Source: Euryarchaeota archaeon (GTDB lineage: Archaea; Thermoplasmatota; SW-10-69-26; JACQPN01). From it: a stretch of DNA of 64,000 nt. Each line of letters starts with the position of its first letter. Position 1 is the stretch's first letter. Made by a program: the position numbers and the translations under genes. Positions 5,185 to 12,112 of this stretch are shown one piece after another. The stretch lies in the NCBI GenBank assembly GCA_016207515.1, contig JACQPN010000019.1, positions 1 to 64,000 of the forward strand. The letters run 5' to 3'. The notes beneath the pieces are model-generated. The model searched no databases. It had not been told where the DNA came from and saw nothing but the letters and a program-made list of their open reading frames with translations.

Positions 5185-5826
5185 TGCATCCCTCTCCGAC
5201 GACGCGAGATCCGCATCGCAACTAGATATGGCGCGGGTCGGTATCTAAAGAATCGTGATTGACCAGGGTGAAAATCTGCACAGTGTATTCTCACACGAAA
5301 GAATCGGTCCATCGCCCACAAGAATCGTCATCTTTCCATGACCAGTCCTTGACGCGCGTGTTGGTCACTCTAAGGAGGAAACCTATTGTCCATGCGTACG
5401 TTTTAAATCTAACAAGCGTTGCATTTCTTCCGAGCAGTAACATGCCGGTGACTTAGTCTCGCAAATCGAAAATCCGAGTGGAACCACGACCGCGTCCACG
5501 TCGGATCATGGGTAGAGAATAGACTCACGCGAGGAAAACCGTCGCTCAAAGTGACGTTTCAGCCGTGGTTGACGTTTGTATGCAGCGGGCCAGTTGCACC
5601 GTCACTCTTCTGCGTCGCAGAACCCGAACCATGGTCGTGACGCACGTCGCCTCCGTGCGCGTGGGCCGCCCGTTGGCGCGCGGTGCCCGACCGGGCGACG
5701 GACGTCGTTCTTGTGGCGGCCTCTTTGCGAAGGCGATCTCGCCGTTTTTCATCTGTTGGAAGTGCGATCCATGAGGTCGCCACGTTTAAATAAGGACATC
5801 CGCCTTCCCGCGCGAGGCGTTCAACG
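5185..5826. other. 642-bp region without recognised gene
   Basis: Contains promoter-like elements only: a TATA-like TTTAGATA (minus strand) for the small gene at 4912-5184, an isolated TTTTAAATC at about 5401-5409 with no gene following, and TTTAAATA at 5785-5792 for the dehydrogenase gene. GC content is low from about 5220 to 5480. Short open frames here lack start signals and family-like sequence. An unannotated RNA starting near 5430 is possible but unsupported. Confidence 0.5.
5785..5792 (+). promoter_or_regulatory. TATA box of dehydrogenase gene
   Basis: TTTAAATA. Transcription would start near 5815, leaving a short leader before the TTG 5827 or ATG 5842 start. Confidence 0.6.
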
Positions 5827-8628
5827 TTGCAGCTCCAAGATATGATCATGCACCCGCAGAAGGCGATGGCGCGGTTCGATCCGTTAAGGAAGGAGCTCAC
5901 GGACGGACAGAAGCGGGACCTCATGCACACGTTCGGGGACCGCGTCTCCCTCGACTGGAACGAACGGCTCATCTATTCCCATGACGGGGGTGCCCTACCT
6001 GCGCCGCTACGGATCATGTTGAAGACGCGCGCCGCGGCCGTCATCCGTGCGCGCGATTCCTCCGACCTGTACCACGCCCTGCGCTTCGCCAAGACGCATC
6101 TTCTCCCCGTGACACCCCGCGGGGCTGGCACCTCATGGAACGGGGCCTCGCACCCCGCCGAGGACGGTTTGGTCGTGGACATGCGCGGCTTCAACCGGGT
6201 CCTCGCCATCGACGAGACCGCGCTGACTTGCACGGTCGAGCCTGGGATCAACTTCCTTACCCTCGAGAAGACGCTCAATGCGAAGGGATTGTCGCTACGC
6301 ACCCATCCGACCACCGCCCCGGGTTCGACGGTCGGGGGCCGCGTCGCGTTGGGCGGTGGCGGCTACGGGAGCCTCGAATTCGGGTCGTTCGGCGACCAGG
6401 TCGTCGAGGCCGACATGGTGCGCCCGGACGGAAAACAGGTGACCCTCAAGGGAAGCGACCTCGACCTCGTGGTGGACGCCGAAGGCACGACCGGGTTCAT
6501 CACGCGTCTCACCCTGCGGGTGAAGAGGATGGAGGCGGTCGAGCCTCTCCTCATCACCTTCAAGGACCCCGAGAAGGCGTGCAAGGCGTTCGAGGCCCTC
6601 TCCCGGCTTCCGCTCTGGAATCTCCACATGTCGACGCGCGAGTTCTCCGTGATGAGAAACGACGCCCAAGGGACGAAACTCCTTCCCGGCGACGCGGAAG
6701 CGATCCTCCTCGCGGCGCCGAAGGAGAGATTGGCTGCGCTCCAGTCGCGCCTCGATGACGTCGTGAAGGCGTTCGGTGGAGAGGTCGCGAAAGGGGACCT
6801 CGCCAAGAGGGAATGGGACAACAGGTTCAACCAGATCTCCGTGAAGCGGATGGGCCCGAGCCTCGTGACTGCGGAGGTCGTGGTGCCGGCGGATCGGCTG
6901 TTCGAGGCCCTGGAGGCCGCGCGCAAGGCGGCAAAGCTCGAGGAGTTCGGTATCTGGTGCCTCGCGGTGGGTCCGCGCGAAGTGCTCCTTGTCTGCCAAG
7001 GCCTCGCGGACGAGCGTCGACCGGATTACGTCCTGACGCACGCGAATTCCGTCGCCATCGTCGATTCGGTGAAGAGGTTCGGTGGCCGGGTCGCATCCGC
7101 TGGCCTGCTTTTCCCGGGTGAATCGAAGAGAGCGTACGGATGGGAGCGGATGAACCGCTGGCGCGACTTCCGGCGAAAGTATGACCCGAAGGACCTCATG
7201 AACCCGGGGAAGATCTTCCCGGCACACCTCTCCCTTGCCCCGCCCATGGACCTTGCATCCTTCATGAAGATGAACAAGCCTTTGATGATGCCCCTTCGCG
7301 GCCAATTCCCCTACAAGGGCGCCGCGAAGGAGGATTCCGCCTCGCTTGCCATCTGGAGGGCCTCGGGCGCCGTCAACGCATCACGCGGACTCTCGAAGCT
7401 CGCCCATGACGTCACCACCTGCTCGTCGTGCGGCTGGTGTTCGAACGTCTGCCCCGTCGGCGAAGTCGACCAATGGGAATCCGCCCTCCCACGGGGCCGC
7501 GTGAACCTGGCGTCGTACGTGCTCACGGGAACCGGCAAGGTCATCAAACGGAGCCTGCCGACGCTTCACGAGTGCACAGCGTGCCGTCGATGCGAGGAGG
7601 TCTGCCCGTCGAAGATCCCGCTCGTATCCGTTTTCGAGGGACTGAGGTCGACCTTCGTGGAACGGGGGGCCGGCTCGAACACCGCCTTCGCGGCGATGGC
7701 CGGATCCGTGAAAAAAGAACACAATCCCATCGGAAGGCCCCACAAGGACCGGAATACGTGGGCGACGGGCCTCGCCTTCGTCCCGACGGCGACCACGCTC
7801 CTCTACGCCGGATGCACCGCGTCATATTCGAAACCGAACACGGCGAAGAACGCCGCCGCCATCGCCAAGGCCGCCGGCATCCAACTCGCCCACCTAGGTG
7901 CCGATGAATGGTGCTGCGGAGACACACTGCTTCGGACGGGCCACGAGACCGAGGCCCGCGAGACGATCCTACATAACGTGAAGGCGGTGGCGGCGAAGAA
8001 CCACGGCCAGATCCTTTCGGTGAGCCCTGACTGCCACCGGACGATAAGTAAGGAATGGAAGGAGGCTGCGGCCGCGGAAGGGTTGGAGTGGGAGGTCGAG
8101 GCGAAGTCGATCGTCACCGCGATGAGAGAATGGGTCGATTCGGGAAAGATCAAGTTGACGGCCCCGTTCCCGAAGAAGGTCGTCTGGTATCCTGGGTGCG
8201 GCCACCGACTGGCGATCGGGCCGTCGGGTAGTGCGTTACTCAAGAAAGTCCCCTCCCTCGAACTCATGGAAGCCCCGGATTTCGTCTCCTGCGGTGCTGG
8301 CGCCGGTATGCGGCAGGGTTACAAGGACAAGGCCCAAAGGATGGCCACGAACCGGCTCAATGAACTCAAGGCCATGGGAGTCCAGACGGTCGTCACGACC
8401 TGCGGGACCTGCATCCTCAACCTCGAGGAGGCGAACACCGTTGGAAAGATCGGGTTGGAGATCCTCGACATCGTGGACGTCGTCGCCGTGTCCGCGGGCC
8501 TCATGACCCCGCCCGCCCCGCCGTCTCAACCTGCGCCGGCAAAGCCCCAGGCGACGGCGCCCGGTGCGGGTGCTGCGACGCCGGCGGCGCCTCCGGAAAG
8601 GCCCGCGCCTCCCGTCCCCGCGAACTAA
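5827..8628 (+). CDS. fused FAD/iron-sulphur 2-hydroxyacid dehydrogenase (GlcD-GlcF type)
   Basis: A 933-residue fusion. The N-terminal half is a VAO/PCMH flavin domain (PRGAGTSWNGAS and TTAPGSTVGGRVALGGGGYG motifs, about 97-185) with a FAD-linked oxidase C-domain. Two 4Fe-4S clusters follow, CSSCGWCSNVCP (about 531) and CTACRRCEEVCP (about 582). Then come two CCG-type domains with CTASYSK/WCCGD and PGCGHR/SCGAGAG (about 660-830), as in GlcF, LdhA and HdrB. It would oxidise D-lactate, glycolate or a similar 2-hydroxyacid and pass electrons to a membrane or soluble carrier. The last 45 residues are a Pro/Ala-rich tail. The start may be ATG 5842 or 5848 rather than TTG 5827. The true substrate is unknown. 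Confidence 0.88.
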   Translation: MQLQDMIMHPQKAMARFDPLRKELTDGQKRDLMHTFGDRVSLDWNERLIYSHDGGALPAPLRIMLKTRAAAVIRARDSSDLYHALRFAKTHLLPVTPRGAGTSWNGASHPAEDGLVVDMRGFNRVLAIDETALTCTVEPGINFLTLEKTLNAKGLSLRTHPTTAPGSTVGGRVALGGGGYGSLEFGSFGDQVVEADMVRPDGKQVTLKGSDLDLVVDAEGTTGFITRLTLRVKRMEAVEPLLITFKDPEKACKAFEALSRLPLWNLHMSTREFSVMRNDAQGTKLLPGDAEAILLAAPKERLAALQSRLDDVVKAFGGEVAKGDLAKREWDNRFNQISVKRMGPSLVTAEVVVPADRLFEALEAARKAAKLEEFGIWCLAVGPREVLLVCQGLADERRPDYVLTHANSVAIVDSVKRFGGRVASAGLLFPGESKRAYGWERMNRWRDFRRKYDPKDLMNPGKIFPAHLSLAPPMDLASFMKMNKPLMMPLRGQFPYKGAAKEDSASLAIWRASGAVNASRGLSKLAHDVTTCSSCGWCSNVCPVGEVDQWESALPRGRVNLASYVLTGTGKVIKRSLPTLHECTACRRCEEVCPSKIPLVSVFEGLRSTFVERGAGSNTAFAAMAGSVKKEHNPIGRPHKDRNTWATGLAFVPTATTLLYAGCTASYSKPNTAKNAAAIAKAAGIQLAHLGADEWCCGDTLLRTGHETEARETILHNVKAVAAKNHGQILSVSPDCHRTISKEWKEAAAAEGLEWEVEAKSIVTAMREWVDSGKIKLTAPFPKKVVWYPGCGHRLAIGPSGSALLKKVPSLELMEAPDFVSCGAGAGMRQGYKDKAQRMATNRLNELKAMGVQTVVTTCGTCILNLEEANTVGKIGLEILDIVDVVAVSAGLMTPPAPPSQPAPAKPQATAPGAGAATPAAPPERPAPPVPAN

Positions 8629-8713: not shown

Positions 8714-9664
8714 CTACTCCGTCTTCTTTCGCCTTTCCTCGATCACGGAGACCATCTCGTCGGCGGAATCCATCTTCTCCATTTCTGTCTCGCCGACGAG
8801 CGCGGTCCCCTCGACGGACGTCTTCGTGCGCATCTCGCGCACGACGAATACCGCGTGTTTGCCCGTGAGGCCGGCGATGTCGGCAAGCGCCCGGGCGCGG
8901 GCCTTGAAGTCCGCTTCCCCCTCGGATACGCCGGTGAAGATGAGGGTCTTCCTTGCGGCGCTCACGGCCGAGAACGGGCTCCGCTGCGTCTCGGCGACGT
9001 CGTAACCGAGTCTACGGAATTCCAAGAGGGCGTCTCGTAGCAGTCCTTCCTGGAGGTTCTCCAACCGTGATGGGTGCGAGACCTTGGCGGGATCGAAGGC
9101 GAACGGGTCGAGGGGCCGGCTGATCGGGGCTTCGAGGAACTCCTCCATCCTCAATACGACGTCGACCATCGCGTTCATCCCCTCCTCGTACATGGCGATG
9201 GCCCGACGGGACACGCCTGCTACTTCAGCCAGTTGGCCGAGGGAGATCGCGCGTTCCTCGCGTAGCCGCCGCAGCGTCGCCCCGTCCACGTGGACGTAGA
9301 AACCGCCCGGCCCGGCAAAGACAAGCGGCGGCGTTTCGCCCACGAGGAAATCCTCCAGCGTCTCCAGGCTCGTGATGGTGACACCATGGCGCACGTAGAG
9401 CGCTCCCTGTTCGAGATCCCCCGCGGACGAGCGCTCGCCCACAAGGAGCGGTGTCCCTCCGATGAACTTCGCGATGACGCGTAGTTCCGAGGCGACGTTT
9501 TCGGAAATGGAGTCCACGTTCGTGAGGACCTTCACGACGAGCATCTCCTCGCCGCGCCTTGCGATGACGTCGAAACTTAACGGTCGGACATCGCATTTCT
9601 CGGATAGTGAGAAGCCTGCGGTGGCAAGGACACGGCGCGTCTCCTCCAGTATCTGCGCTCTCAT
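8714..9664 (-). CDS. archaeal HTH-type transcriptional regulator
   Basis: A 316-residue member of the archaeal 'putative HTH-type transcriptional regulatory protein' family. The N-terminal half resembles a nuclease-like sensing fold (FDVIARRGEEMLVVKVLTNVD). A Cro/C1-type HTH follows at about 130-185 (LRRLREERAISLGQLAEVAGVSRRAIAMYE), and the C-terminal half repeats the first fold (VSAARKTLIFTGV). Start ATG 9664 lies about 29 bases from a TATA-like CTTCTATATC on the opposite reading, so the mRNA is nearly leaderless. Targets are unknown. Confidence 0.85.
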   Translation of the reverse strand: MRAQILEETRRVLATAGFSLSEKCDVRPLSFDVIARRGEEMLVVKVLTNVDSISENVASELRVIAKFIGGTPLLVGERSSAGDLEQGALYVRHGVTITSLETLEDFLVGETPPLVFAGPGGFYVHVDGATLRRLREERAISLGQLAEVAGVSRRAIAMYEEGMNAMVDVVLRMEEFLEAPISRPLDPFAFDPAKVSHPSRLENLQEGLLRDALLEFRRLGYDVAETQRSPFSAVSAARKTLIFTGVSEGEADFKARARALADIAGLTGKHAVFVVREMRTKTSVEGTALVGETEMEKMDSADEMVSVIEERRKKTE

Positions 9665-9840: not shown

Positions 9841-10062
9841 TTGAGTCCGACCCCAGACAAGGGCGCGCCCGGCCATCGAGGCGCCCCCCCGCGCCTTGAC
9901 GATCGTCCCCTGTTCTGCCGCGAATGCCGTTACTGGTACGGCGCCGAGGACGACGAGTACGGCCCCTGCCAGATAAAGCACGGCCGGGCGGCGAACGATT
10001 TCCTCACGCACGGGGGCCATTCATGTGACGAAGGCATGACCAAGGGGAAGGACAAGCTTTGA
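9841..10062 (+). CDS. small Cys-rich putative metal-binding protein
   Basis: A 73-residue protein with a TTG start. It holds FCRECRYW, then GPCQIKH and HGGHSCDEG, giving four Cys and several His that could form a zinc site. Its stop overlaps the start of the GNAT gene (TTGA, 10059-10062), and the GNAT stop overlaps the CysRS-like gene the same way, so the three are surely co-translated. No named family is recognised. The tight coupling suggests a role linked to those two enzymes. Confidence 0.65.
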   Translation: MSPTPDKGAPGHRGAPPRLDDRPLFCRECRYWYGAEDDEYGPCQIKHGRAANDFLTHGGHSCDEGMTKGKDKL

Positions 10063-10892
10063 CGCCCGCGACGCTGACTTTCAGGATGATGGAACGCGAC
10101 GACGTGCGCTCCGTCTCGGCTCTTCTCAACGAGGCCGGCTGGGCCTTCCTTCCACATGAGATAAGCAGGCTTTTCGAATTGAGCCCAAGCCTATCCGTGG
10201 TCGCCGAGCGCGATGCCGGCCTCCTAGGGGTCGCCATGGGGACGCTTCATGGCGAGCTCGGTTGGCTCGGGAACGTCGCCGTCAAGGCTTCGGAACGAGG
10301 CGGCGGCATCGGGCGGCGACTGGTGGAGGCGACGATCGCCGAATTGGAAGGCGCCGGGGCCAAGGCCGTGCGCCTCGCCTCGACCGCCGTCGCCGTGAAG
10401 ATGTACGAGAGGCTTGGTTTCGTACAAGAGGGCCACGTGCTTGCCCTCGCGGGAGAAATCGACGGCCGGGCGGCGCCCGCCTCGATGCGCCTTACGCCGG
10501 CCCACCTCGAATCCGTGATCATGATGGATCGGACGGTCTTCGGCGCGGACCGGTCGCGAACGCTACGCCGACTCCTCTCCGAGTTCAAGGACAACGCGGC
10601 CGCCACCGGGAACCCGGTCACCGGTTATGCGCTCCTGCACGACGGCGTGTTGGGCCCGCTTGTGGTCGGAAGCGGCGAGACGCGCGACGCTGAAGCCCTC
10701 GTGCGCTCGGCAACAGCCGGGTACGCGGGAACTGTGGAGGTCGCCGTCCCGGGGGCCAACGCGAAGGCGGTGGCGCTTTTCGGCCGCATGGGGTTCAAGG
10801 AGGCCGTTCGAACGACACTCATGTCCCGTGGCCGCGCCCCGGCGATGACGTTGTCATCCATCTACAGTCTCGGGGGGCTTGAGAAAGGTTGA
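10059..10892 (+). CDS. two-domain GNAT N-acetyltransferase
   Basis: A 277-residue protein. The N-terminal GNAT domain (about 1-140) has the acetyl-CoA loop SERGGGIGRRLVE and the closing VKMYERLGFVQEG. The C-terminal half (about 145-277) looks like a second, degenerate GNAT-type domain ending KAVALFGRMGFKEAVRTTLMSRG, as in YitH-like proteins; mycothiol synthase MshD also has two GNAT domains. TTG start in a TTGA overlap with the gene before, and its stop overlaps the CysRS-like gene in the same manner. The acceptor substrate is unknown; the neighbour hints at a cysteine-containing compound (inference). Confidence 0.82.
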   Translation: MTPATLTFRMMERDDVRSVSALLNEAGWAFLPHEISRLFELSPSLSVVAERDAGLLGVAMGTLHGELGWLGNVAVKASERGGGIGRRLVEATIAELEGAGAKAVRLASTAVAVKMYERLGFVQEGHVLALAGEIDGRAAPASMRLTPAHLESVIMMDRTVFGADRSRTLRRLLSEFKDNAAATGNPVTGYALLHDGVLGPLVVGSGETRDAEALVRSATAGYAGTVEVAVPGANAKAVALFGRMGFKEAVRTTLMSRGRAPAMTLSSIYSLGGLEKG

Positions 10893-12112
10893 CGCTGCGG
10901 CTCTACAACACGCTCTCGAGAAGCGTTGAAGCATTCAAGCCGCGTCACCCGGAGTTCGTCTCGATGTACGTGTGCGGGCCCACCGTCTACGACCACGCGC
11001 ACATCGGGCACGCGCGCTCGTACGTCTTCTACGACGCGCTCAAGCGATACCTTGTCCACTCCGGTTACCGGATCCGCCACGTCCAGAACTTCACGGACAT
11101 TTCCGACCGCCTTCCACTCGTCGCAAGAAAACGCGGGAGTTCGGTGGTGGAGACGGCGGAGCATTACCTTCGCTCCTTCAAGGAGGACATGGCGCGGCTT
11201 CGGACACTCCCTCCCGACGTCGAGCCGCGGGCGACCGAGCACATCGGCGACATCATCGAACTCGCCAAGTCGCTCATCGCAAGCGGCCAAGCATACTGCA
11301 ACGATGCTGGCTGCTTCTTCGACGCGGCCCACTCACCGTGCTTTGGCGACCTTGCCGGCCGTCTCCCGCCGATGAAGCCTCCGGTGGACGGCAGGAAGGA
11401 CCAACGGGACTTTGCGATCTGGCGGTTCACGGAGGATGCCGGCGCCACGTGGGATTCCCCGTGGGGCCGAGGGCGCCCCGGTTGGCACATCGAATGCCCG
11501 GCGATGGCGATCCGCCACCTAAGTGGACGGGTCGACCTCCACGGTGGAGGACTCGACCTCATCTACCCGCATCACGAGGCGGGACGAGCCGCGGTGTGCG
11601 CGGCGACGAGCAAGCCCTTCTGCGATTTCTACGTCCATAATGGCTTCGTGACGATGGGCGATACGAAGATGTCGAAGTCCGTCGGCAACTACGTGACGGT
11701 CCGCGATCTCCTCGGCATCACGGATCCCGGGACGTTGCGGTATTTCCTCCTCTCCAAGAAGTACAGGGACGCGCTCGAATACTCGGCGGAGGCGTTGAAG
11801 GCGGCCCAGGCCCGGTTATGGGAGTTGAGGTCCGCGTTCGCGGTGCTTCGGACGGTCCGTGGTTCGGACGGGTTTCCAACGGAGTCCACGGGTCAAAGGC
11901 CCGACGTCGCCGCCGCGCGCTCCTCCTTTATCGCGGCCCTTGACGACGACTTCGACACGCCGAAAGCGCTCTCGCTCATGCACGCCTTGGCCGGCGAAGT
12001 CGCGGCCGCCGTCGGAGCGGGGACTTTGGGCGAGGACGATGCGCGCGCGGCGGTGGAATTCTATCGCGAGGCCGACTCGATCCTAGTGGTGCTTGAAGCG
12101 GGGCAGGGGTAA
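10889..12112 (+). CDS. cysteinyl-tRNA synthetase-like protein lacking the C-terminal anticodon-binding end
   Basis: A 407-residue class I synthetase. Visible are YVCGPTVYDHAHIGHAR (HIGH and zinc Cys), WHIECPAMA (zinc Cys), GGGLDLIYPHHE (zinc His/Glu) and DTKMSKSVGN (KMSKS), so cysteine activation should work. Usual CysRS proteins are about 460-480 residues. This one stops shortly after the helical DALR part (LDDDFDTPKAL) and lacks the final subdomain that reads the GCA anticodon. MshC, the CysRS paralogue that joins cysteine to glucosaminyl-inositol, has the same shortened plan and about the same length. The CGPTVYD and VEPRATEHI motifs are closer to CysRS. It may be a true cysS with a trimmed end or a cysteine ligase. 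Confidence 0.8.
   Translation: MTLRLYNTLSRSVEAFKPRHPEFVSMYVCGPTVYDHAHIGHARSYVFYDALKRYLVHSGYRIRHVQNFTDISDRLPLVARKRGSSVVETAEHYLRSFKEDMARLRTLPPDVEPRATEHIGDIIELAKSLIASGQAYCNDAGCFFDAAHSPCFGDLAGRLPPMKPPVDGRKDQRDFAIWRFTEDAGATWDSPWGRGRPGWHIECPAMAIRHLSGRVDLHGGGLDLIYPHHEAGRAAVCAATSKPFCDFYVHNGFVTMGDTKMSKSVGNYVTVRDLLGITDPGTLRYFLLSKKYRDALEYSAEALKAAQARLWELRSAFAVLRTVRGSDGFPTESTGQRPDVAAARSSFIAALDDDFDTPKALSLMHALAGEVAAAVGAGTLGEDDARAAVEFYREADSILVVLEAGQG

Follow-up and report, generated by a model that had tools for sequence, protein, structure and literature searches.

EpmA and the amino acid:carrier protein ligases are truncated paralogues of aminoacyl-tRNA synthetases that aminoacylate proteins; they are class II enzymes of the LysRS and SerRS types. 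MshC of mycothiol synthesis is CysRS-derived, lacks the anticodon domain, and coordinates zinc by Cys43, Cys231, His256, and the substrate thiol (PMC9736012). In archaea, neither MshC nor mycothiol had been found according to a 2020 review (PMC7278568). CysRS* of Desulfobacterales has no anticodon domain either and still charges the selC* tRNA (PMC7609411; PMC9437257). Hence, loss of the anticodon domain alone does not stop tRNA charging (PMC7609411).

The window, i.e., the whole stretch of 64,000 nucleotides analyzed here, contains a module of three genes, all of which are ORFs with a TTG start. The features are as follows:

9841-10062, + strand: gene of a small four-Cys protein, 73 aa
about 9916-10032, + strand: 39-residue domain of the small protein, C-x2-C-x2-WYG...G-x-C-x2-K-x2-R...T...CDE
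10059-10892, + strand: gene of a two-domain GNAT acyltransferase, 277 aa
10889-12112, + strand: gene of a short CysRS paralogue, 407 aa, lacking the C-terminal region that reads the anticodon
11000-11011, + strand: HIGH motif, residues 38-41 of the 407-aa protein, intact
11582-11584, + strand: codon of Gly232, which by sequence comparison replaces the fourth zinc ligand (Glu238 in E. coli)
11666-11680, + strand: KMSKS motif, residues 260-264 of the 407-aa protein, intact

Overlaps of 4 nt (TTGA) join the three genes, and the GNAT gene overlaps both neighbors. An ORF check and domain matches confirmed the coordinates and gene descriptions given for the trio in the initial annotation. The grouping is beyond chance, as the genes are also together in G001-G006 (same order and class) and in the distant family f6. 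Upstream of the module, at 8714-9664 on the − strand of the window, lies the gene of an HTH regulator of the PRK04140 family; in G003, a close homologue of this regulator is encoded downstream, about 6.6 kb from the module (L092:10465-11424). The gene content marks the genome as archaeal: the window also has matches to archaeal 2-oxoacid:ferredoxin oxidoreductase models, and relatives carry PCNA, S6e, and eIF2 gamma.

The plainer view offered in the initial annotation was that the 407-aa protein is a trimmed cysS, and a search of the genome for a second, full-length copy was suggested. Such a copy was found: a different contig of the source genome (2.67 Mb, rated 98% complete) encodes a normal, full-length CysRS of 470 aa. 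The 407-aa protein is therefore a paralogue, and a sole, trimmed cysS is ruled out. It is a second CysRS gene copy which has lost its anticodon domain. The match of the protein to the cysS model TIGR00435 ends at profile position 375 of 466, and none of six conserved residues of the C-terminal (anticodon) domain is present, compared with six of six in the other CysRS of the genome; the lack of an anticodon-reading part had thus been described correctly. The domain is absent in every short copy checked by sequence. With a TIGR00435 score of 371, the window protein passes the cut-off of 340 and would be called cysteine--tRNA ligase, so automatic annotation hides the short CysRS. In G005, the canonical cysS (G005:C4:14977-16213, L107) spans two frames, which may be a frameshift, a sequencing error, or a split gene.

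In profile searches, the 407-aa protein matches tRNA-synt_1e with an E-value of 1e-96. Like MshC, it keeps HIGH and KMSKS together with a Cys/Cys/His set of zinc residues (Cys29, Cys203, and His228). The zinc residues had been reported as intact, which holds for three of the four ligands; the fourth position is Gly232. The three MshC compared have Gly or Ser at the equivalent of E. coli Glu238, and most other module copies have Glu. Across the module (E. coli numbers), HIGH, Cys28, Cys209, His234, Thr68, Trp205, and KMSKS are retained; in f6, the Met of KMSKS is replaced by Leu, and the lysines are kept there as in the module copies generally.

A core set was defined as the 74 positions with at least 90% conservation in canonical CysRS. 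The window protein keeps 58 of these, versus 72 in the full-length CysRS of the same genome. Complete short copies have 11-28 of the 74 positions changed, canonical copies of the same genomes 0-8, and MshC 11-15. The module copies have lost near-invariant residues such as Asp71, Lys73, Ile75, Arg168, Glu191, and Gln241 (E. coli numbers), with Gly replacing Glu191 in 12 of 12 module copies; MshC is also without Lys73, Ile75, Arg168, and Gln241. This overlap in residue loss is above chance at 80% conservation (p = 8e-5), modestly so at 85% (p = 0.02), and not at 90% (p = 0.13). Judged by sequence, activation appears to be kept while other constraints are relaxed, a pattern that fits a changed acceptor. 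The AlphaFold2 model (pLDDT 92.9) has the CysRS/MshC fold and, with a TM score of 0.93 to CysRS 8qhp and 0.85 to MshC 8hfn, does not discriminate between the two. Its catalytic core superposes on tRNA-bound CysRS 1u0b with a TM score of 0.89.

A CysRS/MshC tree, as had been proposed in the initial annotation, was calculated with 66 rows, including three MshC and two bacterial short CysRS (L032 and L033) and no CysRS* sequences; it is subject to the usual limits of long branches. The 20 short CysRS that accompany the small protein, from 11 families, form one group with a support of 98/93. The canonical copies of these genomes are placed with the other canonical CysRS, and an earlier 64-row tree agrees. 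The three MshC group with L032 and L033 (support 98/97). Hence, the short copies stand outside canonical archaeal CysRS and, in this tree, separate from MshC, although a tree that unites the archaeal group with MshC was not rejected (p-AU 0.30; weak support of 63/37 with L032/L033).

The short CysRS gene of L032, a member of the MshC clade, is divergent beside an LmbE/PIG-L-like gene with an AHPDDE motif (the two genes: 5243-5965, − strand, and 6001-7155, + strand). This gene pair suggests a mycothiol-like pathway in another, bacterial lineage. L033, which groups near L032, is a Chloroflexota sequence. Another anticodon-less CysRS is found in the unclassified archaeon YF1.bin6 (L034:2607-3788 and L038). 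It has Asp at the zinc position Cys209 and groups with Geocrenenecus CysRS rather than with the module.

The most constant partner of the short CysRS is the small Cys protein, a point absent from the initial annotation. Its 39-residue domain gave a gapless alignment of 33 distinct homologues with 13 invariant positions: C1, C4, W7, Y8, G9, G16, C18, K21, R24, T31, C37, D38, and E39. In profile searches, none of the Pfam and NCBIfam families scored above cut-off, and a sequence search of the PDB was likewise without a match. Ten of 11 members show a weak HiPIP resemblance, which may reflect only the Cys spacing. Single-sequence AlphaFold2 prediction (pLDDT 49) yielded no usable structure, and a search of plasmids and viral contigs revealed no relatives.

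We searched 60 relatives with the GNAT and CysRS queries and found adjoining matches in G001-G006 and G008. The pairing of GNAT and CysRS noted from the window alone is, therefore, a conserved partnership. The small-protein profile (alignment A1) was run against 390 genomes of the phylum, and the protein is present in 46 of them. Families f1-f4 and f6 have the trio at one locus; the CysRS gene of f22 is divergent beside the other two. The GNAT gene adjoins the small-protein gene, with no CysRS there, in f8, f45, and f53, and f50 has GNAT beside the short CysRS and the small protein elsewhere. Small protein and short CysRS are at separate loci in f7, f45, f46, f50, and f53. As f7 and f46 have no GNAT of the module type, the three parts are not always together.

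The small protein is accompanied by two CysRS matches in 40 of its 46 genomes. Four more, from genomes 80-91% complete, have a single match which is of the short type by sequence (G175 partly covered). The only genomes that have the small protein and appear to be truly without the short CysRS are G010 and G021, from family f8; f8 thus has GNAT and small protein only. Among the 344 genomes without the small protein, two CysRS matches occur in six: G112 and G047 appear to carry a single gene in fragments, two full-length frames are present in G113, and the others are G266, G270, and G310. Fisher's test on the raw genome counts gave 1e-41, a value that ignores the kinship of the genomes. Because the genomes are related, the family count is the fairer measure: the short CysRS is in 11 of the 12 families having the small protein, and there is no verified case in families without it. 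Since the small protein tracks the short CysRS even from separate loci, the link is independent of gene adjacency.

No conserved downstream operon was found across the families. The short CysRS gene overlaps at its end with a gene for a glyoxalase II-like MBL hydrolase in f6, a possible thiol link, and with a glycerophosphodiester phosphodiesterase (GDPD) gene in f4 (hydrolase and GDPD genes: L097:7876-8493, − strand; L143:8506-9123, + strand; L144:3843-4460, + strand; L096:11099-11896, + strand). A literature search, which covered few subscription journals, found no earlier description of the module.

The 277-aa protein consists of an N-terminal PF00583 domain with an intact CoA loop and a C-terminal PF18014 domain. 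Among 14 module GNATs, Arg80 is invariant, and Gly81, Gly83, and Gly85 are nearly so. The best PDB match is 3ddd (E-value 2e-5), a GNAT of the PH0736 type (PF00583 and PF18014) with the same general two-domain layout and weak similarity. To our knowledge, PH0736-type GNATs have no link to CysRS. MshD is likewise a two-domain GNAT; against its model TIGR03448, the window protein scores 23.3 bits at a cut-off of 163.1. With its CoA loop kept, the protein resembles acyl-CoA enzymes more than Fem-like tRNA-dependent transferases.

We consider it somewhat more probable than the alternatives taken together that the short CysRS works outside translation as a cysteine ligase, together with two partner proteins. 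We infer the chemistry, the loss of tRNA charging, the order of the steps, and the role of each partner. The short CysRS would bind cysteine via zinc, should form cysteinyl-AMP, and would hand the cysteinyl group to an amine other than tRNA. Acylation of the product, in the simplest case at the free alpha-amine of cysteine, is probably the task of the GNAT. The small four-Cys protein would be an obligate partner, either as cysteinyl acceptor or carrier or as a metal-bound redox partner of the product. Two acceptors are about equally likely: a small amine, leading to a low-molecular-weight thiol, and the small protein with its invariant Lys. No gamma-glutamylcysteine ligase of the GCS2 type was found. 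In the specific form in which the short CysRS cysteinylates the small protein (candidate site Lys, residue 46), giving a carrier or modified thiol protein whose residue is capped by the GNAT, the proposal is rather unlikely. EpmA and the carrier-protein ligases resemble such an arrangement in combining a truncated synthetase with a partner protein, and a single Lys of the small protein is strictly invariant; they differ in being class II enzymes, whereas the module enzyme is CysRS-derived.

The initial annotation compared the module with MshC and MshD, which is reasonable as an analogy of how it works. That the two proteins are orthologues of MshC and MshD making mycothiol or a close glycoside is, however, very improbable. 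The short CysRS shares the length and truncation of MshC, both have Gly or Ser at the Glu238 position, and the tree leaves room for a common group. Against the MshC model TIGR03447, however, the 407-aa protein reaches 252.5 bits at a cut-off of 485.1, the GNAT with its PF00583 and PF18014 layout is not MshD, and no PIG-L deacetylase (MshB type, PF02585) was found in this genome rated 98% complete, with a positive Corynebacterium control. MshC groups instead with two bacterial short CysRS, one of them beside a PIG-L-like gene; the small four-Cys partner is a further difference, and the review cited above also stands against mycothiol in archaea. The model scores and the absence of PIG-L led us to reject orthology to MshC and MshD, and membership in mycothiol synthesis is not supported.

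It is also unlikely, though with more in its favor, that the short enzyme still charges tRNA without reading the anticodon, as in recoding, stress, or a tRNA-dependent transferase reaction. CysRS* is a precedent, being likewise a second, anticodon-domain-less CysRS beside a full-length one, and the fit of the core to 1u0b would allow it. CysRS* is linked to selC*/selB*, whereas the module partners are GNAT and small protein, and no tRNA gene was found beside the module. The source genome has a single tRNA-Cys with a GCA anticodon; a search gave no second one, no tRNA-Sec-type or selC-like gene over cut-off, and no UCA anticodon among the typed tRNAs. It does contain eight odd tRNA-like genes with anticodons such as GAA, CCT, CAT, and CCA, several of them having the long variable arm of class II tRNAs:

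C12:162822-162907: tRNA-like gene
C12:166799-166887: tRNA-like gene
C12:167836-167906: tRNA-like gene
C12:168507-168594: tRNA-like gene
C19:95260-95343: tRNA-like gene
C1:46232-46318: tRNA-like gene
C9:58858-58942: tRNA-like gene
C9:75095-75176: tRNA-like gene

Four of these lie within 6 kb (L281), near an apparent Dam/DpnII-type methylase-nuclease pair (ORFs read by eye). Where the acceptor stem is clear, the discriminator seems, by eye, to be G or A, not the U of tRNA-Cys. The acyl-CoA appearance of the GNAT and the loss of near-invariant CysRS residues in parallel with MshC also argue against tRNA charging. These findings make a tRNA role less likely, although the normal tRNA-Cys could itself be a substrate of the short enzyme. 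A regulatory or non-ligase paralogue, e.g., a cysteine sensor or a cysteine persulfide producer with a metal-binding small protein, would suit the four invariant Cys and their weakly HiPIP-like pattern. We regard this as quite unlikely, since the module copies keep HIGH, KMSKS, and the zinc residues for cysteine binding, and a pure sensor would not need all of them together.

For the favored reading, a cysteine ligase outside translation, the module bears on a poorly known field, the low-molecular-weight thiols of archaea (PMC7278568). A putative cysteine-activating enzyme kept in 11 archaeal families with two partners offers a specific starting point for assays. A small amine as acceptor would point to a thiol not yet described. 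If the acceptor is the small protein, this would, if true, be a new protein modification, made by a CysRS-derived protein cysteinylase.
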